Positions 27,366 to 63,346 of a stretch of DNA of 64,000 bases are shown here, one piece after another. The first letter of the stretch is position 1. Each line of letters begins with the position of its first letter. The notes beneath the pieces were generated by a model. That model was not told where the DNA came from, did no database searches, and saw only the letters and a list, made by a program, of their open reading frames with translations. A program made the position numbers and the translations under genes. Source of the stretch: Ascochyta rabiei. Taxonomy: Eukaryota; Ascomycota; Dothideomycetes; Pleosporales; Didymellaceae. The stretch covers positions 1,860,001 to 1,924,000 of the forward strand of contig NC_082409.1 in assembly GCF_004011695.2 (NCBI RefSeq). The letters are read 5' to 3'.

Positions 27366-30300
27366 ATGGCTTCCACGAGCGCCGCCACGGCCCACATGGC
27401 GACGACGACGCTGAAGGTCGAGGGCATGACATGCGGCGCGTGTACCTCTGCCATCGAAACGGGCTTCCAGGGCGTACCAGGCGTAGGGAGTGCGTCTATC
27501 AGTCTGGTCATGGAACGCGCAGTCATCCAACACGACCCGAGCGTCATTTCCGCCGACGACGTCAAGGAAATCATTGAAGACAGGGGCTTTGACGCCGAGG
27601 TGCTGTCCACAGACCTGCCCGTCACCCACACCACCGACGACCATTTTCTGAGCGACTCAGACGACGAAGAGGAGGGCCTGCTCGCAAACGACGGCTGGTC
27701 GACAACCACGCTCTCCGTGGGAGGCATGACCTGTGGTGCCTGCACTTCTGCGGTCGAAGGCGCCTTCAAGGACGTTTCGGGAATCAAGTCCTTCAGCATA
27801 TCGCTGCTTTCCGAGCGCGCCGTCATCGAGCACTGGACCAAGATCATCACACCAGACCAGCTGGCCGAAACAATAGAAGACGTGGGCTTTGACGCAACCG
27901 TGCTGGAAACCGTGGCCGACACGCCCGCGCCCAAGAAGAGCAGGACTGCAAAGAAACAAAAGACAATGACGACAACGCTCGCTGTCGAGGGCATGACATG
28001 TGGCGCCTGTACCTCTGCCATTGAAAATGGTTTCAAGGACGTGCCTGGCGTGTACCAGTTCAACATCAGCTTGCTCGCAAACCGCGCGGTGCTCGTTCAC
28101 GACCCTGCCAAGCTCAGTGCCGAACAGATTGCCGAGACAATCGAGGATTGCGGCTTTGATGCCACCATTCTGTCGTCCGAGGATGCTAGCGTACACCACT
28201 CGTCGTCCAGCCAGGCGCCAATCCACCTCAAGATCTATGGTCTACCAGACATCGAAGCTGCACATGAACTAGAGTCTCTCCTCAGCAACCGGTCCGGCAT
28301 CACTTCCGTTCAGATCAATTTTGCAAACTCAAGAGCCATTGTCAAGCGCGAGCCTCAGGCCATTGGACTTCGAGCTGTAGTCGAAGCCATCGAAGCAGCA
28401 GGCTACAACGCCCTGGTCTCTGATTCCGATGACAACAATGCCCAGCTCGAGTCGCTTGCCAAGACAAAAGAGATTCAGGAGTGGAGACGAGCTGTTGTCT
28501 TTTCTGCTTGGTTCGCCGTCCCAGTCTTTCTCACCAGTATGATCTTTCCCATGTTCTTGCCGTTCCTTGACTACGGCAAGTTCAGTATACTTCCTGGCCT
28601 CTACCTTGGCGACATTGTCTGTCTTGCACTTACCATCCCTGTGCAGTTTGGCATTGGAAAGCGCTTTTACATCTCCGCATACAAGTCTCTCAGCCACGGC
28701 TCCCCAACCATGGATGTCTTGGTCGTTCTGGGTACATCGGCAGCCTTCTTCTTTAGCGTTGCTTCAATGCTCGTGTCCATCTTCGTCCCTCCTCACACCA
28801 AACCCACCACCCTGTTCGACACTAGTACTATGTTATTCACTTTCATCAGCTTAGGTCGCTTCCTCGAGAACCGGGCAAAGGGTCAAACCTCGAAAGCGCT
28901 GTCGAGACTGATGTCTCTAGCACCCTCCATGGCCACCATCTACGCTGATCCAATCGCTGCTGCGAAAGCTGCAGAGGGCTGGGGTGCCACTGACGGGAAA
29001 GATGGTCGTCCTTCCATGGACGTCAACGCTGCCGAAGAACGGGTGATTGCTACTGAACTTATCGAAGTTGGTGACGTAGTCATCCTGCGCCCTGGTGACA
29101 AGATTCCCGCCGACGGCACAGTCACTCGCGGTGAGTCCTACATCGATGAGAGCATGGTCACTGGTGAGGCTATGCCCATTCTTAAGAAAAAGGGAGCCCT
29201 GCTCATGGCTGGTACCGTCAACGGTGCGGCACGTATGGAGTTCATTGTCACGCGTGCTGGCCGTGACACGCAGCTCAGCCAGATTGTTCGACTTGTACAG
29301 GAGGCCCAGACCAGCCGCGCCCCAATTCAACGACTCGCAGATACCGTCGCGGGTTACTTCGTCCCTATCATCATTGCCCTTGGTCTAGCTACCTTTGTCG
29401 CTTGGATGGTCTTGAGCCATGTGCTGCCGTACCCTCCAAAGGTATTCCTCAACCACGCCAGCGGTGGCAAGCTGATGGTATGTGTCAAGCTCTGCATTGC
29501 TGTTATCGTGTTTGCGTGTCCTTGCGCCCTCGGTCTCGCAACGCCCACCGCCGTCATGGTCGGAACTGGTGTCGGCGCGGAGCAAGGTATCTTGGTCAAG
29601 GGTGGCGCTGCTCTGGAGACTGCTACCAAGATCAACCACGTCGTCTTCGACAAGACCGGCACACTCACTATCGGCAAGATGAGCGTCTCCAAGGCCGACA
29701 TTCAGGGCGAGTGGGCCAGCCAGAAGCACCTCTGGTGGACACTCATTGGTCTCGCTGAGATAGGCTCTGAGCACCCCATTGCCAAAGCGATTGTGCGCTC
29801 CGCGAAAGAACATCTCCGTCTTGGCCCCGACGGCATTCTCGATGGCGCAGTAGGAGACTTCGAAGTCGTGGTAGGCAAGGGCGTTACTGCCAATGTCGAA
29901 GCAGCCGTCACCGGCCCGCGCACACGCTACAAGGTCCTTATCGGCAACGCGACCTTCCTCCTCTCCAACGGTGTCAACGTACCGGACCTCATCGATGAAC
30001 CTCTCACTCCTAATCCCAATTCTCGCAACCCACAGAACCGCTCAGCAGGCATAACGACTATCCACACCGCAATTGGCACAACTTATACTGGCGCGCTCAG
30101 CCTCTCCGACACCATCAAGCCTTCCGCCCGCGCTGTCGTCCTTGCCCTCCAACGTCTCGGCATAAAATCATCCATTGTTACTGGTGACACTTCTGCCTCG
30201 GCTCTCGTCGTTGCAGCAGCAGTCGGTATCTCCTCCGAAGATGTACACGCCTCTGCCACTCCTTCCGACAAAAAGGCCATTGTCGCAGACATGCAATCGC

Positions 30301-30857
30301 GCGGCTTCGTTGTCGGCATGGTCGGCGACGGCATCAACGACTCCCCAGCCCTGGCTTCTGCAGACATTGGAATCGCGCTGAGCACGGGTACAGATGTAGC
30401 TATGGAAGCCGCGTCTATTGTGCTTATGAGCAATACCGACTTGCTTGCTATTCCGGCGAGTTTGTGTCTGAGCCGCGCAATCTTCTTCCGGATCAAGCTG
30501 AACCTTGCGTGGGCGTGTATGTACAACTTCGTCGGTCTGCCCTTCGCTATGGGTTTCTTTCTTCCCTGGGGCCTATCCTTGCACCCAATGGCCGCTGGCG
30601 CGGCAATGGCCTGCTCCTCTGTATCGGTCGTCTTGTCCTCGCTGCATCTCAAGTTTTGGCACAGGCCGAGTTGGATGAAGGTTAGTCTTTTGGATCCTGA
30701 TGCGGAGCTGCCGGAGAACGAGAAGGAGATCGAGAGGCTCGAGCAGGGTGGCGTCATCAGCATGGCAAGAGATTGGGTCATGGATAGCTGGGCTGCGTGG
30801 AGGAGGAATAAGGAGGAGGCAAGGTATGTGCCGTTGCAGGACATGGGCGAGCGCTAG
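27366..30857 (+). CDS. ccc2: P1B-type copper-transporting ATPase (Ccc2/ATP7 family, 1,163 aa)
   Basis: Pumps Cu+ into the late Golgi lumen to load multicopper oxidases such as Fet3-type ferroxidases and laccases. Single exon. Three canonical HMA metal-binding domains carry GMTCGAC at about residues 20, 119 and 209. A fourth HMA-like fold (about 278-350, IHLKIYGLPDIEAAHELES) lacks the CxxC. Then come eight TM helices with the actuator SMVTGEAMP (about 597), the ion-path CPC in FACPCALGLATPTA (about 718), the phosphorylation site DKTGTLT (about 762), the nucleotide-domain SEHP (about 802) and the hinge GDGINDSPALASADIG (about 986). Start 27,366 follows a CACACC context. It is the last host gene before the AT-rich compartment, ending only about 220 bp before it, yet has normal base composition and no RIP-type stops. 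Confidence 0.97.
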   Translation: MASTSAATAHMATTTLKVEGMTCGACTSAIETGFQGVPGVGSASISLVMERAVIQHDPSVISADDVKEIIEDRGFDAEVLSTDLPVTHTTDDHFLSDSDDEEEGLLANDGWSTTTLSVGGMTCGACTSAVEGAFKDVSGIKSFSISLLSERAVIEHWTKIITPDQLAETIEDVGFDATVLETVADTPAPKKSRTAKKQKTMTTTLAVEGMTCGACTSAIENGFKDVPGVYQFNISLLANRAVLVHDPAKLSAEQIAETIEDCGFDATILSSEDASVHHSSSSQAPIHLKIYGLPDIEAAHELESLLSNRSGITSVQINFANSRAIVKREPQAIGLRAVVEAIEAAGYNALVSDSDDNNAQLESLAKTKEIQEWRRAVVFSAWFAVPVFLTSMIFPMFLPFLDYGKFSILPGLYLGDIVCLALTIPVQFGIGKRFYISAYKSLSHGSPTMDVLVVLGTSAAFFFSVASMLVSIFVPPHTKPTTLFDTSTMLFTFISLGRFLENRAKGQTSKALSRLMSLAPSMATIYADPIAAAKAAEGWGATDGKDGRPSMDVNAAEERVIATELIEVGDVVILRPGDKIPADGTVTRGESYIDESMVTGEAMPILKKKGALLMAGTVNGAARMEFIVTRAGRDTQLSQIVRLVQEAQTSRAPIQRLADTVAGYFVPIIIALGLATFVAWMVLSHVLPYPPKVFLNHASGGKLMVCVKLCIAVIVFACPCALGLATPTAVMVGTGVGAEQGILVKGGAALETATKINHVVFDKTGTLTIGKMSVSKADIQGEWASQKHLWWTLIGLAEIGSEHPIAKAIVRSAKEHLRLGPDGILDGAVGDFEVVVGKGVTANVEAAVTGPRTRYKVLIGNATFLLSNGVNVPDLIDEPLTPNPNSRNPQNRSAGITTIHTAIGTTYTGALSLSDTIKPSARAVVLALQRLGIKSSIVTGDTSASALVVAAAVGISSEDVHASATPSDKKAIVADMQSRGFVVGMVGDGINDSPALASADIGIALSTGTDVAMEAASIVLMSNTDLLAIPASLCLSRAIFFRIKLNLAWACMYNFVGLPFAMGFFLPWGLSLHPMAAGAAMACSSVSVVLSSLHLKFWHRPSWMKVSLLDPDAELPENEKEIERLEQGGVISMARDWVMDSWAAWRRNKEEARYVPLQDMGER

Positions 30858-31676: not shown

Positions 31677-32237
31677 ACGTACTCTACAGGTAAGCGGATT
31701 AAACAGGTAAGCAGATTACTCTGCTAAGACCACACTAAACCTCTACCTTACTACGCAATGCCTTAATAACAACATTAATCTACGCCCTTAAGAGAAGCTG
31801 TAATACAGCTTACGCTCTAGGTAATTAAATAAGACGTAATACTTACCCTATAACGCACTATAGCTATATATAACACACCTTACAGTATACTATATACTTA
31901 ATATATAGGATAACCTATATAAGCTAATTATACGCTAGTTTAATAGATTATAGACTAGACTAAGAAGGACGTAATTACTAAGTATATCCTTAAGCTAGAT
32001 ATATTAGGATTTACTTCTTAGCTAGCTACTATAGCTAATATAGCTAATTCTTTATATACTAAGTATAATATAGGCTATGTTAGTATAAACTAGCCTAATA
32101 CGTTTATTAAGTACTACCCTAACCTTAAAGTAAGGTTTAATTGTAAGTATAACTATAAGAAAGCCCTCTATAAGAATCTAGACATTATTAGGGGCTAGTT
32201 TAGGCTTATAGTAAATGTTAAAGCTAAGTATAATATC

Positions 32238-32392
32238 TATTATAAACTAGCCTTAGGGTAGGATGTAATAAGGGTTAATATAGTATTATATCTCTTATAG
32301 AGGTAACACGTTACGTATCCTTCTAATATGTCTATAGGGCACGTAACTATCCTGTCTTACTTAAGGCTTAGATAAGGTCTAAGCCTATAATA
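32238..32392 (-). repeat. LTR of gypsy family 1 (3' LTR in coding sense)
   Basis: 155 bp, same length as its partner at 39,283-39,437. Starts TATTATA (TG decayed to TA) and ends CCTATAATA. Confidence 0.9.
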
Positions 32393-33019
32393 TACCTTCT
32401 TTCTCTATCTCCTCTAGGCTGTATATACTGTTATTAGGTCCTTTTTATATTTAGCGTAGCGTAGAAGATACTAGTAGTAGGTAAACTCTAGAGCTAGTTG
32501 TAGTTACGTAAGGGTCTAGCTCTTAGTAGTTAGCTACTTATCTAGTCTGTAGTTTACCTAGGGTAGTCCCTATATACACCTAGGTTGTTTTTATTTTACC
32601 TAGTACACCTACCTAAGTTAGACACTATACTACTCTATACTTCTACCTAACCTACCTATAATATACTTACCTAATTTTTTATACGTGTCTTTACCCTACC
32701 TACTATATCTATTATTACCTCTAGTTATAGCTATTAGGCTACTAGCTAAGAAGCTAGTAGTTCTTCTAGAGGGGGTAGTTGTAGTCTGCTATAGTCCCTT
32801 CCCTCTGCCTATAATATACCTCTAGTATATCTTATCTATAGTTTCTAATTTAGTTATAGAGCCTAACTATATATATAGAAAGCTTACTACTATTATATAG
32901 ATAACTATAAAGTTAAGGGTAACTTAGATAATAAGAACCTAGTCTCTGTCTCTGCTAGCGCTGTTCTATACTACCTCTACTACCTTCTTACTATCTTTAC
33001 TAGTTAGTCTTATAAATGC

Positions 33020-34040
33020 CTACGTCTATTATAAGTCTACTTACTTGCTAATTTCTTCTACAGCTAACTATGTTCTAGGCGCTAGTAAGATCTATTATAC
33101 CTACGCTAAGTATAAGTATATCTACGTCTATAATAACAACCTCTTTATTATAAACGCTAAGCTCTACTATACCTAGTGTAATTTTAAGTAGTATATTAAT
33201 ATATATATTTCTGTTCTAGCCCCTTATTTCTAACTAATAGTAGCTAAGGTATTAGCCTATACTAGTAACGCCTATATTAAGATACCTAGTACCTAAGGTA
33301 TAGGTAGTAACAAGGCTAACTAGAGGCGTTAGCCTGTGTTCTACTATAAGTTACCTTCTTATTACTACTATAGGTGTTTCTTTCTAATATAATATTTTTA
33401 CTAGGTACCTACTATAAGCACTAGTAGGTGTATAAGACTGTGCTTAACCTAGCCCTAGCTAACCCTACGCTAGTAAAGCAGTTAACCTCTGCTTATACTG
33501 CCTATTCCTCTACTAAGCCTAGTACTTAGGTTACTCTACCTACTATGCTGTTGTCTAGGCGTTATAGCAGTAACTAACTAGACACCTACCTCTAATAGTT
33601 TATAGCTACTATAGAGTTAGCCTTCTAGTTCTAGACTAAGCGTATAAACTATATAGAGGTAGTCTAGGCCTATACTACTATAAGAACTTCTATCTATATT
33701 AGGTATATAGCTAACTAGATCTAAAGAACACTATTAACTAAGTTAAGCACCTACTTACTACGCCCTACTACTACCTAGAGTACGCCCTATTATCCTACTT
33801 ATCCTACTACTACTACTCTAACTCCTCTAATAAGCGCTGCTTGTCTGTCTGCTAGCTCTACGTACTACCTTACTACTACTACTCTCCCTTCTCTATAGAG
33901 TTACCTACGCCTCTATGCTAGTGCTGCTCTCTCTCCCTTATAAGGTCCCCTACGCCCTCTTACTATTACTACTTCTTCTCCTCTATAGAGCTGCACGCGT
34001 ATACCTACTATTACTACTTACCTTCCTCTATAGAGCTATA
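33020..34040 (+). pseudogene. Antisense open-frame relic inside gypsy family 1
   Basis: Runs opposite to gag-pol, downstream of integrase. From about 33,460 a frame stays open for nearly 200 codons, interrupted only by TAA/TAG and never TGA, as expected if these were CAA/CAG/TGG before RIP. It includes short stretches such as TLPTMLLSRRYSS and LLTKLSTYLLRPTTT, and ends in a Thr/Pro/Tyr-rich tail. Upstream (33,080-33,240) a block with many Tyr codons at CxxC-like spacing could be a decayed Cys-rich finger (TGC to TAC is a RIP change). Not identified; possibly an accessory antisense gene of the retrotransposon. Confidence 0.4.
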
Positions 34041-37000
34041 TATACCTAACTATAACTTTAAGAAAATATTATAGTTAATATATAGTAGTACTATTAAGGT
34101 AGATATAGAGGGTGGCAATAATAACTATAAGGTTAACTACTACTGCTACAACGTGTAAAACTAGGCTCTAGACACAGCTACTACTACCTGTTATTCCCTA
34201 TCTATAAATAATAACATCTTTTTTAAGTTTTAAGGCTTACTACTAGTTACTAGGTAGTAGATATGTAAGGTAGTAGTATACTGTTACTATAAGGTCTCTA
34301 AGCTCTTCTATACTAGGCCTTATACTCTATATAGTATCTTCTAATAGAACTCTATAAGGGTTATTATAAATAATAAAAGTTTCTTCTTCTCTATATCTAC
34401 TTCTTATATACTATATATATTACTATAAAGGCCTTCTAGGCCTTTATATTCTATAACACTTCTAGTAGTTTCTATATTAGTTTTATATATCTCTTCTATT
34501 TTACTAGAACCTATAACTTATTCTACCTATAAGCCCTCTTTTCTTTTAGAATAGACTCTACCTTCTATTTAGCTAGGGTTAGGTTGTCCTCCTCTAGAAT
34601 AACTAGCAGGCCTAGTCTACTTTCCTATAGGCGCTATGTTAGTAACAGGTTAGAAGCTATATATTCTAGTAGGTTAACATATACTATCTTATAGAGGTTA
34701 CCTAATAAATCTAAAGTAACTATTAGAGGGGTAGGAAATATAACTACTGTATACTAGGCTTATAACTAGTTAAGCTTCTAGCTTAGCCTATTAGTTTTTA
34801 TATTATAGAGGGAAAACTACACTCTATCTTCTATATAGTACTACTCTATAGGCTAATAGCTATAGTCTATTACGTTCTAGGTATATTATTATACTTATAC
34901 TATAGCTACCTAGGTAAGCTCTATACCTTACTAGAGGTAGTCTAGAAAATAGACTACCTATCCCTGTAGTGTGTTCTAGCTAATAGTTAGTAGTACTATT
35001 ATCTGCAGAAGGTCTATATTATAACTGTAGAGAAGTAGGTTAGAACTAACCCTAGTAACTAAAGAGTTATAATTATTAAGTGCTAGTTAGTAGGCTAAAA
35101 GATAGTTAGGCTAGTTTTTCTATTTAAAGTTAACTATAACCTATAGGACTACCTACACCTCTTAGTTAGCACGCTCTATTCCTCTATCTGTCTAGAGGTA
35201 GTAGGCTGTAGAGAGTAGCTAGTCTACCCCTATAAGGCTATACAGTATTATCTAAAAATGTCCTAGCTAGTCTAAGCTATAGTCTAAGTATATAGAGCTA
35301 GAAAAGCCTTAGAACTACTACTACATGTTATAGAAGACCTTAGCGCAATATTCTATAGTTATAGAAGTTATTACCTTAAGCTATATATACTTAGAGAAGT
35401 AATCTATAATAACTAAGAGATAGCGAAGTGTATTCTTATAAGCCTAAGAGAGGTAAACTATAAAGTCTATAGAAATCTAGAACTAAAAACAGTTAGTAAT
35501 AGATAATAGCTAGAGTAAGCCTTACTATTAGCGCTATAATATATATGTACTAAAATAGTAGTAGTTATAGATATAACACTAAATATCCTATAATATCCTC
35601 TTTTAGTAGAAGTTACGTCTAATAATATAGAACGTAGCGTTAGTACCTAGATAGCCTATTAGGTTAGATTTATATACCCTTTAGATTATTATAGTTATAA
35701 GTAGCTTCTAATATAGAACCTACGTAACCCTATACTATAGTAGCGTGCTATAAGCACTAAGTATATAATCTATAATTTACTAAGTAGTCTTAGCCTTAGA
35801 AGAGAACTAGTAGGCCCTATTATAGATAGTAGATAGGCGCACTATATACTCTATATCCTGCTAAATACCTTTATTCTATAGTAATTATATATATATATTA
35901 ATAAAAAGTAGAGGTATACTAGAGCCTAGTGTACTAATTACTAATACTAAAACTAGGGTTATTATCCTATAGACCCCCCCTAACCTTCTATTATAGTCCT
36001 GTTCCTAGTAGCTTAGCGTATTAGGTTAGGCTGCTAGGCGTTCTAGACAGAAGCAAAGGTAGAAACAGAACTTTAACAGCTTCTCTGCCTATTAGTGCTA
36101 CCTCTTACTTAGCCTGCGCGCTATTATAAAGTACTAGAGGTTCTTATAGTTAGTTAGGATAGAAAATAGCCTAGTAATAGACCCTAATTTAGCTACCTAG
36201 ACCTCTAGGCACTTTATAACAGTAGTTAACTTCTTATTATAGATAGTGTAGTTCTGTTATTCTATTATAAGTATAGTAGAGTAGTACGCTACTAGGTAAA
36301 GCACCTTCCTATACTATTAAGAAAGGCAGCTACCTAGCGCCTTACTAGAGTAGTCTACCTCTAATAGTGTTTCTTACTTAGGTTTCTACTAGGCTAGGAC
36401 TAGTTCTGTTATAAATGCGTTCTTTAGCTAGTAGAACGCTGCATCCTTCTCCTACCCCTACCTAAATAGGATATCCTTCCCTATAAGTTAATTAAGTAGA
36501 GCAGTAATATTAGAGAAGGCTAGAATAAAGTTCTAGTAGAAGTTAGTAAACCTTAGGAAACTGCAGACTCTACGTAAAGACTGTAGAGCTTCCTAATTAT
36601 AGATTACCTTAACCTTCTTAGAATTAGAACAAACGTCCTTTCTAGCTTCTATAATATATCTTAGGTAGTATACTTCCTTTATTATAAATACGCACTTCTT
36701 AGAATCTAAATACAGCCCTATATTACGTAGAAGCGTAAGAACTCTACTAACCTTCTCTAGGTAGTCTGTCCTAGACCTACTACTGTAAATAAGAATATTA
36801 TTTAGGTATACAGTAGCATAATTACCTAATATCTCCTAAAGCGCGCTGTTAATGTAACGCTAGAAGGACACTAGTACTCTAGCTAGGCTAAACAGATAGA
36901 CTAGCTACTTAAAGAGCCTAAAACAGGTATAGAATGTAGTAAGGTGCTTATCTCCTTCTATAACACAAATCTAGTAAAATACTAAATAGATATTAACCTT

Positions 37001-39282
37001 AGAGAACTAGCAGGCACCCCCTAGTATACGTAAGGTTTCCTTAATAAGAGGAAGTAGGTACTAATTAGTAATTATAATACTATTAAGTGCGTAATAGTCT
37101 ATGCACATACGCTACCTACTAGAGAACTTCTTAACTAGTAGGACTAGGGCCCCTACTAGGGAAGAGGAGGCGTAGATCTACCCCTTATCTATTAGTACTA
37201 ACACCTATTTCTATAGCTTAAGTAGCTAGTCCCTTAGCATGTTATATAGAGGGCCCTAGAGTAGAAGCTTCTTCTTTTTAGACTAGTTACGTTATAACTA
37301 TATATAGTAATCTATCTAGCCCCTATATAGAGAAAGGCTAGAGGCCTTACTCTTATTAAATAGGTCCTAAAACTAGACTAACTTAGAGGGAAGAGGGTCT
37401 GCCTCCTCTGCTGTCCCTTACGCTCCTAGAGATTAAACTAAGAGGATCTTAGTAATGTTATAGAGGCTTATAGAGACAAACTAGTTCCTAGGCAGGCACT
37501 TCTAGAGCCTATTAGCTAGGGTCTTATTAAACTTAGTTACTAATAGAAGAGCTACGTAAACGTTTGCTATACACTATAAGGATTTATAGATAATAAGGTT
37601 CTCTACCTATTATATCCTTAGTATGCCCTTTTCTACGTCTAACACTACACCCTCTTATTAGAGCTAGGGTTTCCCTAAAATAACATCTTAGCTTAGACCT
37701 AGTACTACGTAGACTACTACCTATAAGTACTACCTATCTAAGTTATACCTAAACAGAACTAAACAGGAGATTATAGACTTTCTACTAGTGCCTACTACTT
37801 ACGCTAAGCGTTATAGCAGTACCTTAGTAAAGTCTCCTTCTAAGTATATAGTAAAGTTATTACTTACTATACTAAAGTATTTACACTCTAAGTCTACTAG
37901 CATATTAGCCTAAATTGCCCTATTAATAAATAATAGAACGTAGAATAGAGGCTTGTCTATAGAGTCTATAATAGCTTCTCTAGCAGCCTATAATACCCCT
38001 ATACTAGTAGTCTCCTCTACTACTTCTAACTTAGACTTATATTAGAAGTAGCTAGTTTCCCCTATATAAACTAGCTCTTTCTTACCTAAGATTATTACTA
38101 CCTATACTGTAGTTACTACTATATTAGTATAATTCTAGTAAATATATCCTTCTTTACTATAATAGGTATATAGGTTAGCCTTCTAGTGTTACTAAAATAC
38201 CTTATTAGGTACCTACGTAGCCTAGTTAGGAGCAGACTACTTCTAACCTCTATACTTAGCACTGCTGCTACTATAAACTATAGACATAACTATTATCTTA
38301 ATATTACTATTCTTATTACACTTAGGTAGTGCCTAGGTAGAAGTGTAGTGTAGCTAGTTTTCTATAGCTATAGTCTTAATATCTATAGTAATAGACTTAT
38401 ATTCTATAATAGCTATATTATAATCTATATAAGTTACTCCTTAGTTTATTACTATATTATAGATATTTGCGTTTAGAGCCTAGTAGAGCTTTAATAGGCA
38501 TTATTCTCTGTCCTAGTAGAGGCTGCTACTTTGCACTAGTAGCTGCTTAAACTAGATAAAAAAGTCTAAGAACTACTAGTTAGGACCTTAACAGACGCTT
38601 TCTAGCTTTACCTAGGCCTGTTCCTAGCTGTAGTAATTGCTGTAGCAGAATTCTAGGTATGCTAGGAAGTCCTCTAGGCTCTACACACCTTAGGTACCTC
38701 TAATCTTATAGAATAGAGCTATATCTTATTATATAGACGTACTAAGCTAGAACTATATAAAGGTAAATATGTTCTATAGCCTACTAATAAAGAATATGTC
38801 TACCTATAGCTTATATTCTATTATAACCTACTACGCCTTAAATAAGGATTTATTCCTAGTAAAGGCCTTACCTATAGAAAGAGGTTTTCTATAGGCTATA
38901 GACGTCTACATAGAGGTATATAGGCCTAAGGTAGATACTAAAAATAGTGCTTTATAAGGTAGGTTAGAGGCTAAGGTAGACGTTAATAGGCATAGCGTTA
39001 CTTCTAAGAAGGATAATAGAACTATAGACGCAGGTCTAGTATAGGCGTTAGCTATTTATACTAGAGACTCTATAAATACGCATATATTAGAGTTATTACG
39101 CTTAAGTAATACTATACGCTTATTAGTAGCTAATAAGGCTTACTATAAGTTTATTATAAACTATAATATCTAGGCTATAAATTTCTAAAGGGTTAAGAGA
39201 ACAGATTTATCTAAGAGGTTATTCTAGGAGTTAGCTGACATAGTATAAGTGCTAGCTGTTCTTCTAGAAGAAGAGCTATAAA

Positions 39283-39437
39283 TGTTATAGACTAGCCTTA
39301 GAGTAGAATGTAATAAGGGTTAATATAGTATTATATCTCTTATAGAGGTAATATATTACGTATCCTTCTAATATATCTATAGAGCATGTAACTATTCTAT
39401 CTTACTTAAGGCTTAGATAAGGTCTAAGCCTATAATA
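39283..39437 (-). repeat. LTR of gypsy family 1 (5' LTR in coding sense)
   Basis: 155 bp, begins TGTTATAG with the TG preserved. Differences from the other LTR look like RIP transitions. Confidence 0.9.
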
Positions 39438-40597
39438 GTATCTAGAATAATAATATATATACCTTTAATAAGATAGGCTTAATAATAGGCTAGATATTAA
39501 TAGGAGTAGTTATTATAGGCTTAAAGTGTTAAAGATAGCTAAAGGTAGTATAGTAGGGTAACTATAAGTAGATAATAGTTATATAAGGTATTAATAGTAT
39601 AGAGTAGGCTATTCTACCCTTTATTATCTTTAAAGGCTGTAACTACCTCTCTACCTAGTATAAAGAGGATAATCTGCCCTATAATTAGGTTATTAGAGTC
39701 TCTAAGAATAGATAGACTACTAATAAGCTTAGTCTAAACTAGTTAAAGCACTTTAATGCCTATATAAAGACGCGCACCTAAAAAGTATACTAGCTACTTC
39801 TTATTAATAGCTATAAGAGCTATAACTTCCTTAACTTCTAATAATACTATAAGAAAGTAAAGATTATTACACTATATATACCTCTATACTTATTATACCT
39901 CTTATAGCTACTAGATATAGGCTATTTTACTCCTTTAAAGAAGGTATATAAGTACTAAGCTAAGGATCTTATATATAACTATATTACTTATATTACTAAA
40001 ACTAAGTTTCTACTATACTCTATAGGCGCCTATAAGGAGATATTTACTTCTAGTAATATCTAAGAAGGCTTTTAAGGCGCTAGAATAGTCCCCTTTAACC
40101 TAGAACAGGTTATAATAGGTCTTAATGTCTGCCTACGTACCCTACTGCTACCTCCTATAGAAGATACTCCCTAGTAGTTCTAAACCCTAAGTAATACCCT
40201 ACAATTAGGATTATAATTAACACTAGTTTAAGAGAGGATTTAAAGGCATGCAAGTAGATTAATAACTTTAATAGTTAAGGCCTTTAAAAAGCTTACTAAA
40301 GGTGTAGCTATTATTGTATATAAGCTAGTATTAGCTAAAAAGAAGATTACTAGGCTTTAAATAGTAAATAAGGCTGCTATATAATGTAAATTAAATAAAA
40401 GAAAGTAGTTATAGGAGAAGGGGGTCCTAATAGCTAAGGAAGGCCTTTAATTAACTACCCTAACTAAGTTTAGGGCGTGTAGTAATAGTAAGAAGGTAAA
40501 GAAGTAAGTGCGTGCTAAAGGAGAGGAAGTAACCTAAAGATACTGTATAAAGTACTATAATATTAGACATAACTTATATATATATAAGAAGGCTATA

Positions 40598-42460
40598 ACG
40601 TACTCTACAGGTAAGCGAATTAAACAGGTAAGCAGATCACTCTGCTAAGACCACACTAAATTTCTACCCTATTATAGCTTATATTAGCCCACTTTAGCCT
40701 TATATACAGTAGTGCAGTACATAATATTATTTAGAAACATCTTCTACAGCCTTCTTACATGTACGCAAGTTATGTCTAATATTGTAGCACTTTGTACAGC
40801 GTCTTTAGGTTACTTCCCCTCCTTTAGCACGCACTCGCTTCTTTGCCTTCTTACTATTACTACGCGCCCTAAACTTAGTTAGAGTAGTTAATTAAAGGCC
40901 TTCCTTAGCTGTTAGGACTTCTTTCTACTGTAATTGTTTTCTTTTATGCGATTTACGTTGCGTAGCAGCCTTATTTACTGCTCAAAGCCTAGTAATCTCC
41001 CTTTAAGCTAACACTAGCTTATGCGCTACTATAGCTGCGCCTTTAGTAAGCTTTTTAAAGGCCTTAACTATTAAAGTTAGTAAGCTGCTTGCATGCCTTT
41101 AAATCCTCTCTTAAACCAGTGTTAATTGCGACCCTAATTGCAGGGTAGTGCTTAGGGTTTAGGACTGCTAGGGCTTATCTTCTACAGTAGGTAGCGGTAG
41201 AGTACGTAGGCGGACATTAAGACCTATTATAACCCGTTCTAGGTTAAGAGGGACTATTCTAGCGCCTTAGAAGCCTCCTTAGATATTGCTAGAAGTAAAT
41301 GTCTCCTTATAGGCGTCTATAAAGTATAGTAGGAACTTGGTTTTAGTAATATAAGTAATGTAGTTGTATATAAGATTCTTAGCTTAGCGCCTATATACCT
41401 TCTTTAGAGGGGCAAAATAACCTATATCTAGTAGTTGTAAGAGGTAAGATAAGTATAGAGGCATACACAGTATAACAATCTTTACTTCCTTATAGTATTG
41501 TTAGAAGTTAAGGGAGTTATAGCTCTTATAGCTGTTAATAAGGAGTAGCTAGTGTACTCCTTAGGTGCGCGTCTTTGTATAGGCATTAAAGTGCTTTAAC
41601 TAGTCTAGACTAAGCTTATTAGTAGTCTATCTGTTCTTAGAGACTCTAATAACCTAGTTATAGGGCAGATTGTCCTCTTTATACTAGGTAGAGAGGTGGT
41701 TACGGCCTTTAAAGATAATAAAGGGTGGAATAGCCTACCCTATGCCATTAATACCCTATATAACCGTTGTCCACTCTTAATTACCCTGCTACACTGCCTT
41801 TAGCTGTCCTTAACGCTCTAAGCCTATAATAACTGCTCCTGTTAATATCTAGCCTATTATAAAGCCTGTCTTATTAAAGTTGTACGTGTTATTGTCCTAG
41901 ATGCTATACTTAGCTTTAACATTTGCTATAAGCCTAAACCAGCCCCTAATAATCTCTAGATTCTTATAGAGGGCTCTCTTGTTGTTATACTTGCAATTAA
42001 ACCTTACTTTAAGGTTAGGGCGGCGCTTAACAAACGTGTTAGGCTAGTTTATGCTAACATAGCCTATATTACGCTTAGCACGCAAAGAATTAGCTATATT
42101 AGCTACAGCAGCCAGCTAAGGAGTAAATCCTTATGCATCTAGCTTAAGGATGTACTTAGTAATTACGTCCTCCTTAGTCTGGTCTATAATCTGTTAAACT
42201 GGCGTACAATTAGCTTGTGTAGGTTGTCCTGTGTATTGAGCGTGTAGTGTACTATAAGGCGCGTTATATATAGCTGCAGCGCGTTACACAGTAAGCGTTA
42301 CGTCTTGTTTAATTGCCTAGAGCGCAAGCTATATTACAGCTTCTCTTAAGGGCGTAGATTAATGTTGTTGTTAAGGCATTGCGTGGTAAGGTGGAGGTTT
42401 AGTGTGGTCTTAGCAGAGTAATCCGCTCACCCGTTTAATCCGCTCACCTGTAGAGTACGT
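40598..42460 (-). mobile_element. pogo/Fot1 element, copy B (1,863 bp), nested in copy A
   Basis: TA duplications at 40,596-40,597 and 42,461-42,462. Terminal inverted repeats of about 64 bp begin ACGTACTCTACAGGT and contain an internal GCGGATTA direct repeat. Transposase lies on the minus strand. This is the least RIP-mutated copy: it keeps many CA/TG steps, and blocks of the DDE transposase are readable (NFNKTGF, LRTAKGSVAG, FKGRNHLSTWYKEDNLPYN, LLLINSYKSYN, LQLLDIGYFAPLKKVYRR). Still interrupted by stops. Size and domain order fit the Fot1/pogo group; the 1.86-kb length resembles the Molly element reported in Parastagonospora nodorum, but identity is unchecked. Confidence 0.93.
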
Positions 42461-42611
42461 TAGAAGATATTTCTAAATAATATTATATCCTATACTACTG
42501 TATATAAGGCTAAAGTAGGCTAATATAAGCTATAATAGGGTATAGGTTTAGTGTAGTCTTAGTAGAGTAATCTACTTACCTATTTAATCTACTTACCTGT
42601 AGAGTACGTTA

Positions 42612-44071: not shown

Positions 44072-45934
44072 ACATACTCTATAGGTAAGTAGATTAAATA
44101 GGTAAGTAGATTACTCTACTAAGACTACACTAAACCTCTACCCTATTATAGCTTATATTAGCCTACTTTAGCCTTATATATAGTAGTATAGAACATAATA
44201 TTATTTAGAAATATCTTCTATAGCCTTCTTATATATATATAAGTTATATCTAATATTATAGTACTTTATATAGTATCTTTAGGTTACTTTCCCTTCTTTA
44301 GTATATACTTACTTCTTTACCTTCTTACTATTACTACACGCCCTAAACTTAGTTAGAGTAGTTAATTAAAGGCCTTTCTTAGCTGTTAGAACCCCCTCCT
44401 CCTATAACTGCTTTCTTTTATTTAATTTACATTATATAGTAGCCTTATTTACTATTTAAAGCCTAGTAATCTTATTTTTAGCTAACACTAGCTTATACGT
44501 AATAATAGCTACACCTTTAGTAAGCTTTTTAAAGGCCTTAACTATTAAATTTATTAAGCTACTTATATGCCTTTAAATCCTCTCTTAAACTAGTGTTAAT
44601 TAATTTCCTAATTGCAGAGTATTACTTAGGGTTTAGGACTACTAGAGAGCATCTTTTATAGAAGGTAGTAGTAGGGTACGTAGGCAGATATTAAGACCTA
44701 TTATAACCTATTTTAGGTTAAAGGGGACTATTCTAGCGCCTTAAAATCCTTCTTAGATATTACTAGAAGTAAATATCTCCTTATAGGCGCCTATAGAGTA
44801 TAGTAGAAACTTAGTTTTAGTAATATAAGTAATATAGTTATATATAAGATCCTTAGCTTAGTACCTATATACCTTCTTTAAAGGAGTAAAACAGCCTATA
44901 TCTAGTAGCTGTAAGAGGTATAATAAGTATAGAGGTATATATAGTATAATAATCTTTACTTTCTTATAGTATTATTAGAAGTTAAGAAAGTTATAGCTCT
45001 TATAGCTATTAATAAGAAGTAGCTAGTATACTTTTTAGGTGCGCGTCTTTATATAGGCATTAAAGTGCTTTAACTAGTTTAGACTAAGCTTATTAGTAGT
45101 CTATCTATTCTTAGAGACTCTAATAACCTAATTATAGGGCAGATTATCCTCTTTATACTAGGCAGAGAGGTAGTTATAGCCTTTAAAGATAATAAAGGGT
45201 AGAATAGCCTACTCTATACTATTAATACCCTATATAACTATTATCTACTTACAGTTACCCTACTATACTACCTTTAGCTATTCTTAACACTCTAAGCCTA
45301 TAATAACTACTTTTTTTAAAATCTAGCCTATTATAAAGCCTGTCTTATTAAAGTTATATATATTATTATTCTAAATACTATACTTAGCTTTAATATTTAC
45401 TATAAGCCTAAACTAGCCTCTAATAATCTCTAGATCCTTATAGAGGGCTCTCTTATAGTTATACTTATAATTAAACCTTACTTTAAGGTTAGGGCAGTAC
45501 TTAATAAATATATTAGGCTAGTTTATGCTAATATAGCCTATATTATACTTAGTATATAAAGAATTAGCTATATTAGCTATAGTAGCTAGCTAAGAGGTAA
45601 ATCCTTATATATCTAGCTTAAGGATATACTTAGTAATTACGTTCTCCTTAGTCTAGTCTATAATCTGTTGAACTAGCGTATAATTAGCTTATAAAGGTTA
45701 TTCTATATATTAAGCGTATAGTATACTATATAGCGTGTTATATATAGCTACAGCACGTTATAGAGTAAGTATTACGTCTTATTTAATTACCTAGAGCGTA
45801 AGCTATATTATAGCTTCTCTTAAAGGCGTAGATTAATATTATTATTAAGGTATTACGTAGTAAGGTAGAGGTTTAGTGTAGTCTTAGTAGAGTAATCTAC
45901 TTACCTATTTAATCTGCTTACCTATAGAGTACGT
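44072..45934 (-). mobile_element. pogo/Fot1 element, copy C (1,863 bp), strongly RIP-mutated
   Basis: Flanked by TA (44,070-44,071 and 45,935-45,936). Same length and colinear with copies B and D, but with nearly all CA/TG lost; even the terminal ACGTAC has become ACATAC at the left end. Transposase strand is minus. Confidence 0.93.
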
Positions 45935-46446: not shown

Positions 46447-47620
46447 TATAAAGGGTATATAAGGTAATTATAAGAGAAGATAGAGTTAAAGAGGATAGTA
46501 GGTGTATTAAGGTACGTAGTGTGTAGTAATAAGACTAATTACTAGAGTATTAGTAATAACCTCTAACACCTTAATATAGTCTAGGCTAACAAGATCTATA
46601 GTAGCTTACTAAGACTAGTAAAGGTACCTCTAGGCCTAGCGCCTAATAATACCTTCCTTCTCTAGATTATATAGCTTAAATAATAGTATAATTAGTAATA
46701 CTAAATTTTTTTTAACCTAGCTTTAGACTTATTTACTAATTCTGTCCTGTTATAGCTAATTCTAACTAAGTTTAGGCGTTTATAACACCTTATAAGGTTA
46801 GATAGAGCTTAATACTAATTCTACCTTTACCTAGTATAGGTTAAACAGAAATCCTCTCTTACCTCTTACTTTACCTCTAGGGTCTAAGTAGCTGTTTACG
46901 TAGGCTAAAGCTCTAACTAGAAGGCTAGTAGCATATAAGCTATCTATACCTCTAGTTTTATTAGTTACTACTACATCCTACTTTAATTTAGTAAGTACTA
47001 ACCTATTCTGTCTAGTATTTATGTAAGGATAGCTAAGAGATTTTCTAGGTCTTTCTAGCACGTTCTAATACGTTTTAGCAGATAGTACTACATAATACAC
47101 TCTAGTAACCTCTTTAGACTGTTTCTAACCGCTACTACCTACTACTAACTATTACTAACTATTACTGCCCACTACTAACTATTACTAACTACTACTAACT
47201 ACTATTTACTTTAGCTGTTATGTCTATACCTACTTACTATAAGATTAACATTACTAAGAATAGTAGGACTACTAAGTAGTGCTGTATACTCTGTCTCTAC
47301 TTTATTACTAATAGTAATGTTAATAGAGACTATCATTTCTCTACTAACCTAGCTTTATAGGGTAGCCTATGCTATAGGAACACTTAAGCCTACTACTATA
47401 GAGACTATTATAATAGTAATAAGAATTACCTATTAGTATGTGTTTTATCTTCTTTTAGCTTGTTTTAGCATTTTTTAAGATATTTAGGGCCCTAATAAGT
47501 ACGCTAACAGCTATTTTAGTCTTTCTAGTAATGTAGCGCGCCTTTACTTAGGTTAATATATAGTTACTACTACTTATACTACTATAATTAATATATCTAG
47601 CGTTAAGACTACTATTATAA
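46447..47620 (-). mobile_element. Ty3/gypsy family 2, 3'-terminal fragment (reversed)
   Basis: A 202-bp LTR at 46,447-46,648 and about 1 kb of adjoining internal DNA match 62,390-63,548 of the full element in reverse orientation. The match ends near 47,620, just before pogo copy D. The LTR is the 3' LTR of a minus-oriented copy. Confidence 0.85.
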
Positions 47621-47661: not shown

Positions 47662-49524
47662 ACGTACTCTATAGGTAAGCGGATTAAACGGGTAAGCGGA
47701 TTACTCTACTAAGACTACACTAAATCTCTACCCTATTATAGCTTGTATTAGCCTACTTTGGCCTTGTATACAGTAGTGCAGTATATAATATTATTTAGAA
47801 ATATCTTCTACAGCCTTCTTACATATACGTAAGTTATGTTAAATGTTGTAGCACTTTATACAGCGTCTTTAGGTTACTTCCCCTCCTTTAGCGCGCACTC
47901 GCTTCTTTGCCTTCTTACTATTACTACGCGCCCTAAACTTAGTTAGAGTAGTTAATTAAAGGCCTTCCTTAGCTGTTAGGACTCCTTCCTACTGTAATTG
48001 TTTTCTTTTATGCGATTTACGTCGCGTAGCAGCCTTATTTACTGCTTGAAGCCTAGTAATCTCCCTTTAAGCTAACACTAGCTTATGCGCTACTATAGCT
48101 GCGCCTTTAGTAAGCTTTTTAAAGGCCTTAACTATTAAAGTTAGTAAGCTGCTTGCATGCCTTTAAATCCTCTCTTAAACCAGCGTTAATTGCGACCCTA
48201 ATTGCAGGGTAGTGCTTGGGGTTTAGGACTGCTAGGGCTTATCTTCTACAGTAGGTAGCGGTAGGGTACGTAGGCGGACATCAAGACCTATTATAACCCG
48301 TTCTAGGTTAAGGGGGACTATTCTAGCGCCTTAGAAGCCTTCTTAGATATTACTAGAAGTAAATGTCTCCTTATAGGCGTCTATAAAGTATAGTAGGAAC
48401 TTAGTTTTAGTAATATAAGTAATGTAGTTGCGTATAAGATTCTTAGCTTAGCGCCTATATACCTTTTTTAGAGGGGTAAAACAACCTACATCTAGTAGTT
48501 ATAAGAGGTAAGATAAGTATAGAGGCATATACAGTATAACAATCTTTACTTCCTTATAGTATTATTAGAAGTTAAGGGAGTTGTAGCTCTTATAGCTGTT
48601 AATAAGGAGTAGCTAGTATACTTCTTAGGTGCGCGTCTTTATATAGGCATTAAAGTGCTTTAACTAGTCTAGACTAAGCTTATTAGTAGTCTATCTGTTC
48701 TTAGAGACTCTAATAACCTAGTTATAGGGTAGATTGTCCTCTTTATACTAGGCAGAGAGGTAGTTGCGGCCTTTAAAGATAATAAAGGGTAGAATAGCCT
48801 ACCTTATGCCATTAATGCCCTGTATAACCGTTGTCTACTCTTAATTACCCTACTGCACTACCTTTAGCCGTCCTTAACGCTCTAAGCCTGTAAAAACTAC
48901 TCCTGTTAATATCTAGCCTATTATAAAGCCTGTCTTATTAAAGTTATACGTATTATTATCCTAGATGCTATACTTAGCTTTAACATTTGCTATAAGCCTA
49001 AACTAGCCCCTAATAATCTCTAGATCCTTATAGAGGGCTCTCTTATAGTTGTACTTACGATTAAACCTTACTTTAAGGTTAGGGCGGCGCTTAACAAACG
49101 TGTTAGGCTAGTTTATGCCAACATGGCCTATATTGCGCTTAGCACGTAAAGAATTAGCTATATTAGCTATAGCAGCCAGCTAAGGGGTAAATCCTTATAT
49201 ATCTAGCTTAAGGATGTACTTAGTAATTATGTCCTCCTTAGTCTAGTCTATAATCTGTTGAACTAGCGTACAATCAGCTCGTGTAGGTTGTTCTGTGTAT
49301 TAAGCGTGTAGTATGCTATAAGGTGTGTTATATATAGCTACAGCGCGTTATAGGGTAAGCGTTACGTCTTATTTAATTACCTAGAGCGTAAGCTGTATTG
49401 CAGCTTCTCTTAAGGGCGTAGATTAATGTTGTTGTTAAGGCATTGCGTGGTAAGGTGGAGGTTTAGTGTGGTCTTAGCAGAGTAATCCGCTTACCTGTTT
49501 AATCTGCTTACCTGTAGAGTACGT
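47662..49524 (-). mobile_element. pogo/Fot1 element, copy D (1,863 bp)
   Basis: TA flanks at 47,660-47,661 and 49,525-49,526; inverted ends ACGTACTCTATAGGTAAGCGG and its complement. Moderately RIP-mutated, between copies B and C in severity. Transposase on the minus strand, interrupted by stops. Exactly colinear in length with the other copies. Confidence 0.93.
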
Positions 49525-56387: not shown

Positions 56388-59300
56388 TTCTAATTACTCT
56401 TATATTATAATTAAAGATAGACCTAAGCTACTATAAGTCTTAAACTAAATAATCTAGGCTTACTATCTTTAGAGAGGGACTAAGACAACCTACCTATAGA
56501 AGAGCTAGTAGAGCGTAAGGTAACACCTCTCTCTATAGATAAGGAGATACCTTAATAGACACTAAGTGTCTATAGTGCCTTAAGAAGATCTTTAGGTCCT
56601 CTAGGTAGTATACCTTACTCTAGAATTTATATCTATAGGGCAGCTTTAGCTAGAGAAGGCTAGAATAGCCTAGAAGTAGGTAACTAATAACAGGAGTTAG
56701 AAAACTTACGTAAATAGTAGTAAGAGACAAAAGACTATAAGGAACTTTTCTTTCTTTATAAACTTAGACGCAAATACAATAAAGGAGATCTAGTAATAAT
56801 CCTATCCTTCTAAACAGTACTAGAAGACATAGAGAAACTATAATTTTCCCTATCTATAAATCTTCTATAACCTAAACCCCTATAGAAGTATATAAAGCGT
56901 AACTACGCTAAATATAACTATTAGAAGAGAGATTATAAGGGATACTTTCTCTAATCTCTAGTTAATTTCCTTATAGAGGAATAAAAGATTAACTTTAGTG
57001 TAAGGTACCTCTTAGAGAACCTAAAGACGTTATAGTAGGCCTACTACACAACTAACTACTATAGTTAGCTAACCTAAGAACTAATATAGTAAGAGCTAAA
57101 AAGAATTATACTAGATACTCTAAGAATACTAGCTAAATATAAGTAAGTAGCGTATAAATCCTTAAAGTAATATATGTAGTAGAAATCTTAGTTCTCTATA
57201 TATCTGTTAGATTTTATACGTCTACTATAGAAGAAACTAGGTAACTTATATATATTAGAGCTTTAAATCCTAGAATATATTACTACACTACTCTCTAGTA
57301 TATAAAAGAACTTATTTCTTATCCTCTATAATTAAAGGAATATAATCCTAAAGGTAGAGAAACAAGCTAATATTATTAACTAGAGACTAGGTTATTATAG
57401 CTAATAGCTACCTAAGAAGACTCTAGCTAAGGGTAAGATAACTAACAAAGGACTACAGAAGCGCTAATTTAGTAACTCTAGGTTAGAGGGGAATATAAAA
57501 ACCCTAAAAAAGTTATTTTAAGTCTAAGAAGTCCTATAAGGAGCTAGTAAAGGGTAAAAAGGGCTAAGATAGGCTATATAAGGCCTAAGACGCATACCTT
57601 AAGTATAGAGAAACTAGTTACTACTACTCTAACTACCTAAAGCTAAAGTTAAACTAGAAAGACCCTGCTCTAGATAAGTTAGGAAAAGATAAGAGACCTA
57701 AGAGCTAATCTCCTCTCTTGTAGCCTATATTAAATTATCTAAAAAAAAGAAGAAGAATATCTCTCTTTATAAGGTAGTATACCTAGAATATATATACCTA
57801 CTTATAGTTAAAGTATCTATAGGTAACGTAGAGAATGTAAAAGCCTTAGTAGATAGAAAGTTATAACTAAACTTAATTTTAGTCCTTATAGTAAAGGAGC
57901 AGAATCTAGAGGTTATACTATGAAATAAAATAGTAGCTTAAGGTATAGGTAGAGTAGAATTGCCTATCTATAGAGTAACTATAGTAGAAGTATCTATTAT
58001 TAACTCCTATAGAAGACAGAAGGTCTAATAGATACCTTTTATAGTTATAGACCTATAAAGGTATAAGATATACCTTAGATTACCCTAGATTAACTAGATA
58101 AACCCTAAGCTAAGCTATTTAAGCTAGCGTATGCTCTTCTAAGGAAAGAATTATAGGGACTCTCCTAAACTAGAGAAAATAGTATTAGAAGATGCTAAAG
58201 AGTTTAAACGCACTATAAGAAGTCTCTTAGTAGACGTTTATATATATATAGTAAACTTAGTAGGTATATACAACCTAGTATCTACTAAAAAGAGCCTAAT
58301 TCTAGAAGTGTATTACAAATATAAGTACTTAGGATTAGAGGATAATACTTAGGTTCTACTAGAGTATAGAGAGTATAACCTAGTAATTAATACTATAGAA
58401 GGAGCTACTTTCCCCTACTAACTATTATACAGACTATCTACAACAGAATTAGAGATACTTAGAAAGTATCTAGCAGAATATCTATAATATAGCTAGATAC
58501 AACACTTAAGGTTGCTAGTAGAAGTACCTATTCTCTTTTTAAAGAAGAAAGATAGTAACCTATAACTGTATGTAGACTATAGAGGTCTAAATAAGATAAT
58601 AGTTAAAAACTACTATCTATTACTACTAATTATAGAGTTACTAGAATAACTAGCGTAAGCTAAGTTCTATACTAAACTAGATATACATAAGGTATATTAC
58701 TATATCTAAATTAAGAAAGAGGATAAGTAGAGGACTGCTTTTTAAACTAGGTATAGATATTTTAATTACATAGTAATGCTGTTTAGACTTATAAATACTC
58801 CTGCCTAATTTTAGGCTTATATAAATAAGGCACTGATAGGATTAGTTAATATAACTTATATTATATATCTAGATAATATATTAGTATACTCTAAGACAGA
58901 GGAAGACTACGTTAGATACGTTAAGAAGGTCTTAGAGAGGCTTTATAAGGTAAACTTCTATATACGCTTAGAAAAGTGTAAATAGTATTATTAATATATA
59001 GAGTACCTTAGGTATATAGTCTAACCTAAAGAGGTAAGTATTAACCTAGATAGAGTTAAAATAATCTAAGAATAGCTAATCCTGCGTATAGTTTATAATA
59101 TCTAAGTATTTATAGGCTTTATAAACTACTATTAGAGGTTTATTATAGGGTTTTCTAAATTAGCCTTGCTATTAACCTAATTAACCTAGAAAGGGCTAAA
59201 TTGAGCTAAATCTAGTTAAATAATAAGAAAGGAGGAGAGTTAGCCTCTTAAGCTAAGTAAAGAATCCCTATAAGCTTTCTAGAATATAAAGGATTTATTT

Positions 59301-62750: not shown

Positions 62751-62827
62751 CGAATAGTAGTTAGTAATAGTTAGTAATAGTTAGTAGTAGGTGGTAGTAG
62801 TTAGAAATAGTCTAAAAAGGTTACTAA

Positions 62828-62960
62828 GGTGTCTTATGCGGTACTATCTGCTAAAACGTGTTAGAACGTGCTAGAAAGACCTATAGTAGTAAAAGGGTTA
62901 TTATGTAATACTATCTACTAAAACGTATTAGAATATACTAGAAAGACCTAGAAAATCCCT
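62828..62960. repeat. Tandem duplication of about 66 bp in gypsy family 2
   Basis: The string ACTATCTGCTAAAACGTGTTAGAACGTGCTAGAAAGACCT occurs twice here (second copy more RIP-mutated) but only once in the reversed fragment near 47,050, so this copy has duplicated it. Confidence 0.6.
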
Positions 62961-63346
62961 TAGCTATCCTTATAAAAGTGCTAGATAGAATAGGTTAGTA
63001 CTTACTAAAATAAAGTAGAATATAGTAGTAACTAATAAAACTAGGGGTATAGATAGCTTATATACTACTAGCTACCTAGTTAGAGCTTTAGCCTACATAG
63101 GCAGCTATATAGACCCTAGAGGTAAAGTAAGAGGTAAGAGAGAATTTCTATTTAACTTTTACTAGGTTAAGGTAGAATTAGTATTAAGCCCTATCTAGCC
63201 TTATAAGGTGTCCTAAACGCCTAAACCTAGTTAGAATTAGCTATAATAGGATAGACAGAACAAACACGTCTAAAGCTAGGCTAAAATAATTTAGTATTAC
63301 GAATTATACTATTGTTTAAGCTAAACAATCTAAAGAAGGGAGGTAT

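Follow-up and report, generated by a model that had tools for sequence, protein, structure and literature searches.

Shared sequence tracts among neighbouring RIP-mutated pogo-type transposons, and a nested insertion, in Ascochyta rabiei

Molly, a Tc1/mariner element of Parastagonospora nodorum, is described as RIP-mutated and 1,862 bp long, with 40 listed copies of which 18 are full length (PMC3017866). Non-allelic gene conversion among transposable elements has been reported for human LTRs, Alu and Drosophila ISX (PMC4921805, PMC8230782, PMC4384637), and for the crapaud LTRs of Podospora either gene conversion or ectopic recombination has been proposed because 7 of 150 full copies carried mismatched LTRs (PMC10787394). 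For meiotic gene conversion in Zymoseptoria tritici, a median non-crossover tract of 539 bp is given, with 950 bp quoted for N. crassa, in tetrad work that disregarded SNPs in transposable elements (PMC10294615).

The family that we describe here from A. rabiei resembles Molly by description, both being RIP-mutated DNA transposons of near-equal length (1,863 bp here), although the species differs and the 40 listed Molly copies compare with 237 exact genome matches to the interior pattern of our family. As in the human and Drosophila cases, we propose that tracts were copied between dispersed repeats; what sets the present case apart is the use of RIP mutations as markers and the local character of the excess. 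Crapaud is likewise a RIP-affected fungal element with proposed conversion; its evidence consists of mismatched LTR pairs, whereas we rely on shared tracts and their relation to distance among copies of a DNA transposon. The tract spans found here (209–1,070 bp in ten near pairs) may be set against the Z. tritici median, which concerns allelic conversion with transposable elements excluded rather than exchange between repeat copies. Gene conversion is a known process; here it is measured in RIP-mutated repeats.

The window under study comprises 64,000 nt of the forward strand of NC_082409.1 (GCF_004011695.2, positions 1,860,001–1,924,000), and all coordinates are window positions. Within it, a pogo-type copy (A) is split into three pieces by a Ty3/gypsy-type element and by a second pogo-type copy (B), as the initial annotation had proposed (Table 1). 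When aligned to copy B, the three pieces cover 1,863 of 1,863 columns with neither gap nor overlap, at identities of 88.1% (piece 1), 87.6% (piece 2, read from 39439) and 88.4% (piece 3); the lowest-scoring of these matches still has E = 5e-42, which excludes chance likeness. The pieces are colinear at both joins, subtraction of the two insertions returns for A the length of copies B, C and D, and target duplications flank both the gypsy element (ATATC/GTATC) and copy B (TA/TA), confirming the nest. The nest is in itself ordinary, and it does not fix the order of the gypsy element and B, since neither lies inside the other.

Table 1. Features of the nested insertion and of the neighbouring copies (window positions)
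Feature	Position	Strand	Remark
Copy A piece 1, pogo-type	31677..32237	-	B columns 1303-1863; terminal 5 bp are gypsy target copy ATATC (32233-32237)
Gypsy target copy ATATC, end of A piece 1	32233..32237		
Ty3/gypsy-type LTR retrotransposon, RIP-mutated, 7,200 bp	32238..39437	-	inserted in copy A
Left LTR, 155 bp	32238..32392	-	
RNase H match in gypsy element	~36068-36451	-	profile search, stops read as X
RVT_1 match in gypsy element	~36656-37132	-	profile search, stops read as X
Right LTR, 155 bp	39283..39437	-	12 differences from left LTR
Second gypsy target copy GTATC	39438..39442	.	B reads GCATC on A's strand
Copy A piece 2, pogo-type	39443..40597	-	B columns 148-1302
Copy B, complete pogo-type, 1,863 bp	40598..42460	+	at TA of copy A, TA both sides
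DDE_1 in copy B transposase frame	~41270-41779	B's minus strand	profile search, stops as X
Weak HTH_psq in copy B transposase frame	~42221-42334	B's minus strand	profile search
Copy A piece 3, pogo-type	42463..42609	-	B columns 1-147
Copy C, complete pogo-type, 1,863 bp	44072..45934	+	RIP load rank 103/103 (highest)
Copy D, complete pogo-type, 1,863 bp	47662..49524	+	RIP load rank 68/103

Judged from its sequence, the family of A and B is a predicted pogo/Fot1-type DNA transposon (Tc1/mariner). Copy B carries a DDE_1 transposase match (PF03184, E 4.9e-16 with stops as X) and an HTH_psq match that falls below the cut-off (E 0.003); the family has terminal inverted repeats (~75-bp terminal matches, with 400 repeat ends genome-wide at ≤3 mismatches), and TA stands on both sides of all 57 ungapped copies of a first alignment, copy A not being counted. 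A single intact source copy was not recovered at L054 or L034, the two loci read, which lack an open frame of more than 72 codons; DDE_1 frames free of stops are present elsewhere in the genome as candidate relatives, none being singled out as source. The inserted retrotransposon shares with Ty3/gypsy elements its paired LTRs, 5-bp target duplication and the order RVT_1 (E = 4e-6, below its cut-off) then RT_RNaseH_2 (E = 2.1e-12), and differs in that a profile search of the three minus-strand frames of this RIP-mutated copy gave no integrase match. A 3.2-kb query from it found 39 further matches at 89–91% in the genome (40 of 160 candidates scored).

Copies A and B and the gypsy element are all RIP-mutated. 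In the 57 ungapped copies, 249 of 499 transition columns lie at CpA and 110 at CpG, and invariant C columns number 2 at CpA versus 264 at CpT, such that C-to-T transitions are biased to CpA on both strands. DNA_methylase profile matches, which may include a RID-type methyltransferase, occur at five places in the genome. All 12 differences between the two LTRs are transitions; the suggested dating of this pair after masking of RIP sites therefore yields no date, with 0 informative differences remaining.

The wider comparison used 103 copies (99 loci from L001–L123, together with copies A–D), fewer than half of the places counted by interior pattern, selected for their identity to B or because an end or interior pattern was preserved. 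We dropped gapped copies (L051, L074, L075, L081, L100 and L044, which are one copy, L106, L107, L117 and L120), ten partial loci (L053, L055, L077, L085, L086, L098, L109, L113, L122 and L123), two duplicates (L003 or L039; L046 or L092), the diverged L094, and L031, which aligned over 1–1854 only. Copy A ranks 101st of 103 by RIP load and copy B 56th. A's group stands at the greater transversion distance (A–B 21, A–C 16, A–L041 18), the median number of transversions to other copies being 21 for A and 3 for B. Together with the nesting, these values uphold the placing of A first, and RIP load and transversions support an age for A greater than that of B. The accompanying claim that B is the least mutated copy holds inside the window but fails genome-wide, and its mid-rank position does not support reading B's RIP load as a sign of late entry.

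Sharing of RIP sites between copies grows with proximity. With A, C, L040 and L041 left out, and with z above 0 denoting less sharing than expected, mean z was −3.1 for pairs within 10 kb (n = 18) and −1.9 for pairs at 10–100 kb (n = 47), values reached in 0 of 20,000 permutations in either class, versus +0.4 for pairs more than 100 kb apart on the same contig (n = 237) and −0.2 for pairs on different contigs (n = 4,549). Within 30 kb, 12 of 46 pairs share less than expected, five of these joining an old copy (A, C or L041) to a younger one. Differences in strand, context or regional RIP were considered as a cause and set aside, the distance effect persisting under a 16-class model.

Neighbours also share tracts that are identical or near-identical at RIP-variable sites. 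Of the 74 pairs lying no more than 100 kb apart, 10 carry such a tract, versus 6 of 5,179 others, at a threshold (99.9% of the null) that is expected to admit 0.1% of pairs. Among all 5,253 pairs, only five scored above the maximum of the first simulation (14.5), and the same five remained above the largest maximum of 40 simulations (18.0). B/L001 (13.5) and A/C (11.1) lie below the simulated maximum and qualify only when the comparison is restricted to the 74 near pairs; the case for B as a tract-sharing copy is suggestive only. Rare alleles, given as shared:discordant, follow the tract borders in L033/L083 (4:0 in the tract, 0:11 outside), L065/L066 (4:0, 0:8) and L015/L063 (2:0, 0:12), and the latter two pairs share two and one in-tract transversions, respectively, that are absent from all other of the 103 copies. 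Support within the tract is uneven elsewhere (L007/L022 0:1, L009/L017 0:4, L007/L015 0:1, L042/L043 2:2, B/L001 1:2). The 60-bp flanks of the nine tract pairs checked are only 22–38% alike, so the members of a pair are separate insertions. The shared-allele tracts are flanked by independent sequence.

Were each copy struck by RIP independently, with load ordering their ages and no exchange between them, the average independence of different-contig pairs and the agreement of RIP and transversions on A's age would be accommodated; the dependence of sharing on distance, the tract excess among neighbours and B's middling rank genome-wide are not, and we regard this account as improbable. An artefact of assembly, in which short-read polishing moved bases between near-identical repeats, gains some plausibility from the Illumina polishing described for ArME14, a probable relative of the reference (PMC7341154). 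Such errors should ignore chromosomal distance, yet tracts favour near pairs, and we consider this origin quite unlikely for evidence that is drawn from one assembly of one strain.

Sharing by descent would follow if copies already mutated by RIP had hopped locally, mobilised in trans by an intact relative, for which the RIP sites common to neighbours and the stop-free DDE_1 frames noted above could be cited. Descent predicts an even likeness along the element, whereas L007/L022 is patchy (observed/expected differences 0/6 and 0/8 in the centre, 7/9, 8/9 and 7/7 at one end, 5/9 and 5/8 at the other), leaving local hopping very improbable. Least probable is that RIP struck identical positions in neighbours that were paired with each other, no copying being involved: RIP makes only transitions, so the two private transversions within the L065/L066 tract, a pair sharing no rare allele outside it, count against such coincidence.

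We consider local ectopic gene conversion following RIP the best reading of the neighbour tracts. We place a probability of about 0.85 on a history in which A inserted, the gypsy element and B later entered A, RIP acted on all, and ectopic gene conversion followed among some nearby copies. Copy A would have integrated at a TA, with the gypsy element and B each entering it afterwards; RIP would have mutated all three, and post-RIP homologous recombination would have transferred stretches some hundreds of bp long from one pogo copy to another among some close neighbours. What the data show is the nest with its target duplications, the transition bias, the larger transversion distance of A's group and the excess of common tracts among neighbours; gene conversion as their cause, its meiotic or repair-related setting and the direction of copying are inferences.

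The pogo-in-pogo nests found so far, in a count that did not systematically cover partial copies, are in opposite orientation in 11 of 12 cases (9 of 10 where both sides were seen). A candidate scar of a lost direct nest at L093 found no support, the flanking pieces failing to connect. It is possible, and we offer this tentatively, that RIP-mutated repeats are recombinationally active among neighbours, conversion patching the copies and crossing over removing same-orientation self-nests while leaving inverted ones; RIP mutations might then serve as natural markers, so that a single assembly would suffice to measure recombination between repeats in AT-rich chromatin.

Because neighbouring copies share tracts, RIP load is no clean clock and is ruled out here as an age scale; with some copies probably patchworks, load alone is unsafe for ordering insertions. 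If neighbours do overwrite each other after RIP, insertion orders drawn from RIP load would be unsafe without a tract test, and such a test would offer a cheap measure of ectopic recombination in repeats, which the Z. tritici tetrad study omitted (PMC10294615).

The three pieces of copy A, a pogo-type element, together cover all 1,863 columns of copy B (a complete copy of the same kind) and leave none empty; their matches range from E = 5e-42 to 0.0, and chance matching is excluded. The gypsy element lying between two of the pieces has ATATC at one border and GTATC at the opposite one, copy B reading GCATC at this target site on the strand of copy A, and TA is found at both borders of copy B. 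With the three pieces complete and the flanking duplications present, the splitting of copy A by a gypsy element and by copy B, as proposed in the initial annotation, is borne out; the nest is real, and it is ordinary.

The predicted domains of copy B identify it as a pogo-type Tc1/mariner element, because its minus strand (stops read as X) matches DDE_1 at E 4.9e-16 and, weakly, HTH_psq. The element inserted into copy A fits a worn Ty3/gypsy element, since its minus strand gives RVT_1 (below its cut-off) and then two RNase H models, in order, and a domain scan of the minus-strand frames returned no integrase match. Stops number 237–319 in each frame of the gypsy element and 42 in the 621 codons of the copy B transposase frame, so that neither product could be made from these elements as they stand. 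Across the genome (23 contigs, 40,901,820 bases), a degenerate 35-place pattern from the pogo interior has 237 exact matches (119 forward, 118 reverse), the pogo ends have 400 matches with at most 3 mismatches, and at least 40 are known for a 3.2-kb stretch of the gypsy element, itself included, the best of the others at 91% (40 of 160 candidates scored).

The transitions among pogo copies carry the signature of RIP: 499 columns vary by transitions alone among 57 ungapped copies (249 at CpA, 110 at CpG), and invariant C columns number only 2 at CpA vs 264 at CpT. Methyltransferase matches are present in the genome, as RID-type candidates only. When 103 copies (99 loci elsewhere plus copies A–D) are ranked by RIP load, 103 being the highest, A stands at 101, B at 56, D at 68 and C at 103. 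Copy A differs by transversions at 21 columns from B, 16 from C and 18 from L041 (L-numbers denote pogo loci elsewhere in the genome), and the median transversion distance of copy B to other copies is 3. By RIP load and transversion distance, therefore, copy A is a member of an older cohort, which upholds the order in which A came first. The use of RIP load as a clock for copy B, from whose low load a later entry or RIP strike had been read, does not hold, B ranking only 56 of 103; dating of the gypsy LTR pair gave no age, since all 12 differences in 155 positions are transitions and the pair is undatable once RIP sites are masked.

Features of the window
Feature	Position	Strand	Remark
SAD/SRA-domain protein, predicted	7823-9574	minus	
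Copper P-type ATPase gene	27366-30857		adjoins AT-rich border
Compositional border, sharp	30001-32000		gene-rich ~55% GC to AT-rich ~24-36% GC
Copy A, three pieces	31677-32237, 39443-40597, 42463-42609	minus	88.1%, 87.6%, 88.4% identity to copy B (alignment)
Putative Ty3/gypsy element	32238-39437		
Copy B	40598-42460		
Copy C	44072-45934		
Copy D	47662-49524		
Inverted repeat, ~1.2 kb	46449-47620, 62339-63546		84.7% identity
Direct repeat, ~457 bp	59258-59714, 63545-64000		93.7% identity

The AT-rich block extends from its border to the window end, and the best named match of the copper ATPase is from Stagonosporopsis vannaccii (90%). The two copies of the direct repeat may be the LTRs of a further element.

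Orientation is opposite in 11 of 12 pogo-in-pogo nests (A/B, L039, L018, L092 inner, L092 outer, L065, L066, L076, L094, L100 and L109; p 0.006), L121 alone being in the same orientation. L092 outer and L109 are known from one side only, and without both the count is 9/10 (p 0.02); scoring the ambiguous L093 as same orientation gives 11/13 (p 0.02). The sample is not blind, because L121 was chosen from pattern matches hinting at same orientation and L100 and L092 were deliberately extended. L093 itself is a complete copy flanked on each side by pogo pieces of its own orientation (columns 1–109 at 72%, 1332–1581 at 87%), and these pieces do not join. Among 100 listed copies, neighbours have no clear orientation preference (same vs opposite 10 vs 4 at 2–10 kb, 14 vs 14 at 10–30 kb, 9 vs 7 at 30–100 kb). 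Recombinational loss of direct nests might, as a guess, cause the bias, on which we found no plain earlier report in the open-licence literature. A diverged pogo subfamily (~74% identity to copy B; L094 128–1991, also the L039 and L076 host pieces) occurs as host as well as insert.

RIP-site sharing between copies depends on their distance. A model fitted to 443 informative transition columns in 103 full-length copies, with effects of copy and of site in 16 classes, gave a mean z of -3.1 for pairs <10 kb apart (n=18), negative values meaning more sharing than under independence and this one far more, and a weaker -1.9 at 10–100 kb (n=47); different-contig pairs (-0.2, n=4,549) have hardly any excess and pairs >100 kb apart on one contig (+0.4, n=237) none, these means being computed without copies A, C, L040 and L041. 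Position shuffles matched the near values in 0 of 20,000 cases. Not every close pair shares in this way: of 46 pairs within 30 kb, 12 have more differences than expected, and 5 of these 12 join an old and a younger copy.

The excess is concentrated in tracts. L007/L022, L033/L083 and L009/L017 agree fully at informative sites across copy B columns 530–1049, 702–1100 and 614–1020, respectively, and outside differ roughly like independent copies (the left end of L007/L022 is intermediate). By a tract score, 10 of the 74 pairs that lie within 100 kb of each other pass the 99.9% level set by 40 simulated null data sets, vs 6 of 5,179 others (~5.2 expected among the latter), one of the six being L015/L063, on two different contigs (columns 957–1679, score 24.6). 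The highest maximum in the simulations, 18.0, is surpassed by 5 pairs only; L015/L063 is the sole non-local pair among the five strongest. Tracts of the window pairs B/L001 (columns 932–1288, 35 kb apart) and A/C (598–1087) score below 18.0 and are suggestive.

Rare alleles, an independent check made in the nine top pairs (shared, discordant inside the tract; shared, discordant outside), support copying in L033/L083 (4, 0; 0, 11), L065/L066 (4, 0; 0, 8), L015/L063 (2, 0; 0, 12) and L101/L102 (3, 1; 1, 31), and are neutral or weak in L007/L022 (0, 1; 0, 6), L009/L017 (0, 4; 2, 8), B/L001 (1, 2; 2, 15), L007/L015 (0, 1; 0, 5) and L042/L043 (2, 2; 6, 16).

The tracts are best read as ectopic gene conversion, in which neighbouring pogo copies, already RIP-mutated, would exchange sequence. 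Were the sharing due to the hopping of mutated copies, similarity should be even along the element, whereas tracts are seen. The 60-bp flanks of nine tract pairs are only 22–38% alike, and the pairs are therefore separate insertions rather than local duplications. Polishing errors would not be expected to follow distance, as tract sharing does. RIP striking both members of a pair could yield common transitions, but transversions are not produced by RIP, and private ones are held in common within tracts: L065/L066 share two found in no other of the 103 copies, together with an A-to-G change found in three copies, and L015/L063 share one. RIP alone is therefore insufficient as their maker.

In other organisms, copies of transposons are known to undergo gene conversion with one another (PMC4921805, PMC4384637, PMC8230782), and the process has been proposed for crapaud LTRs in Podospora (PMC10787394); in titles and abstract openings of the open-licence literature we found no report measuring such conversion among the copies of a RIP-mutated DNA transposon. 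What deserves following up here is the local exchange of tracts.
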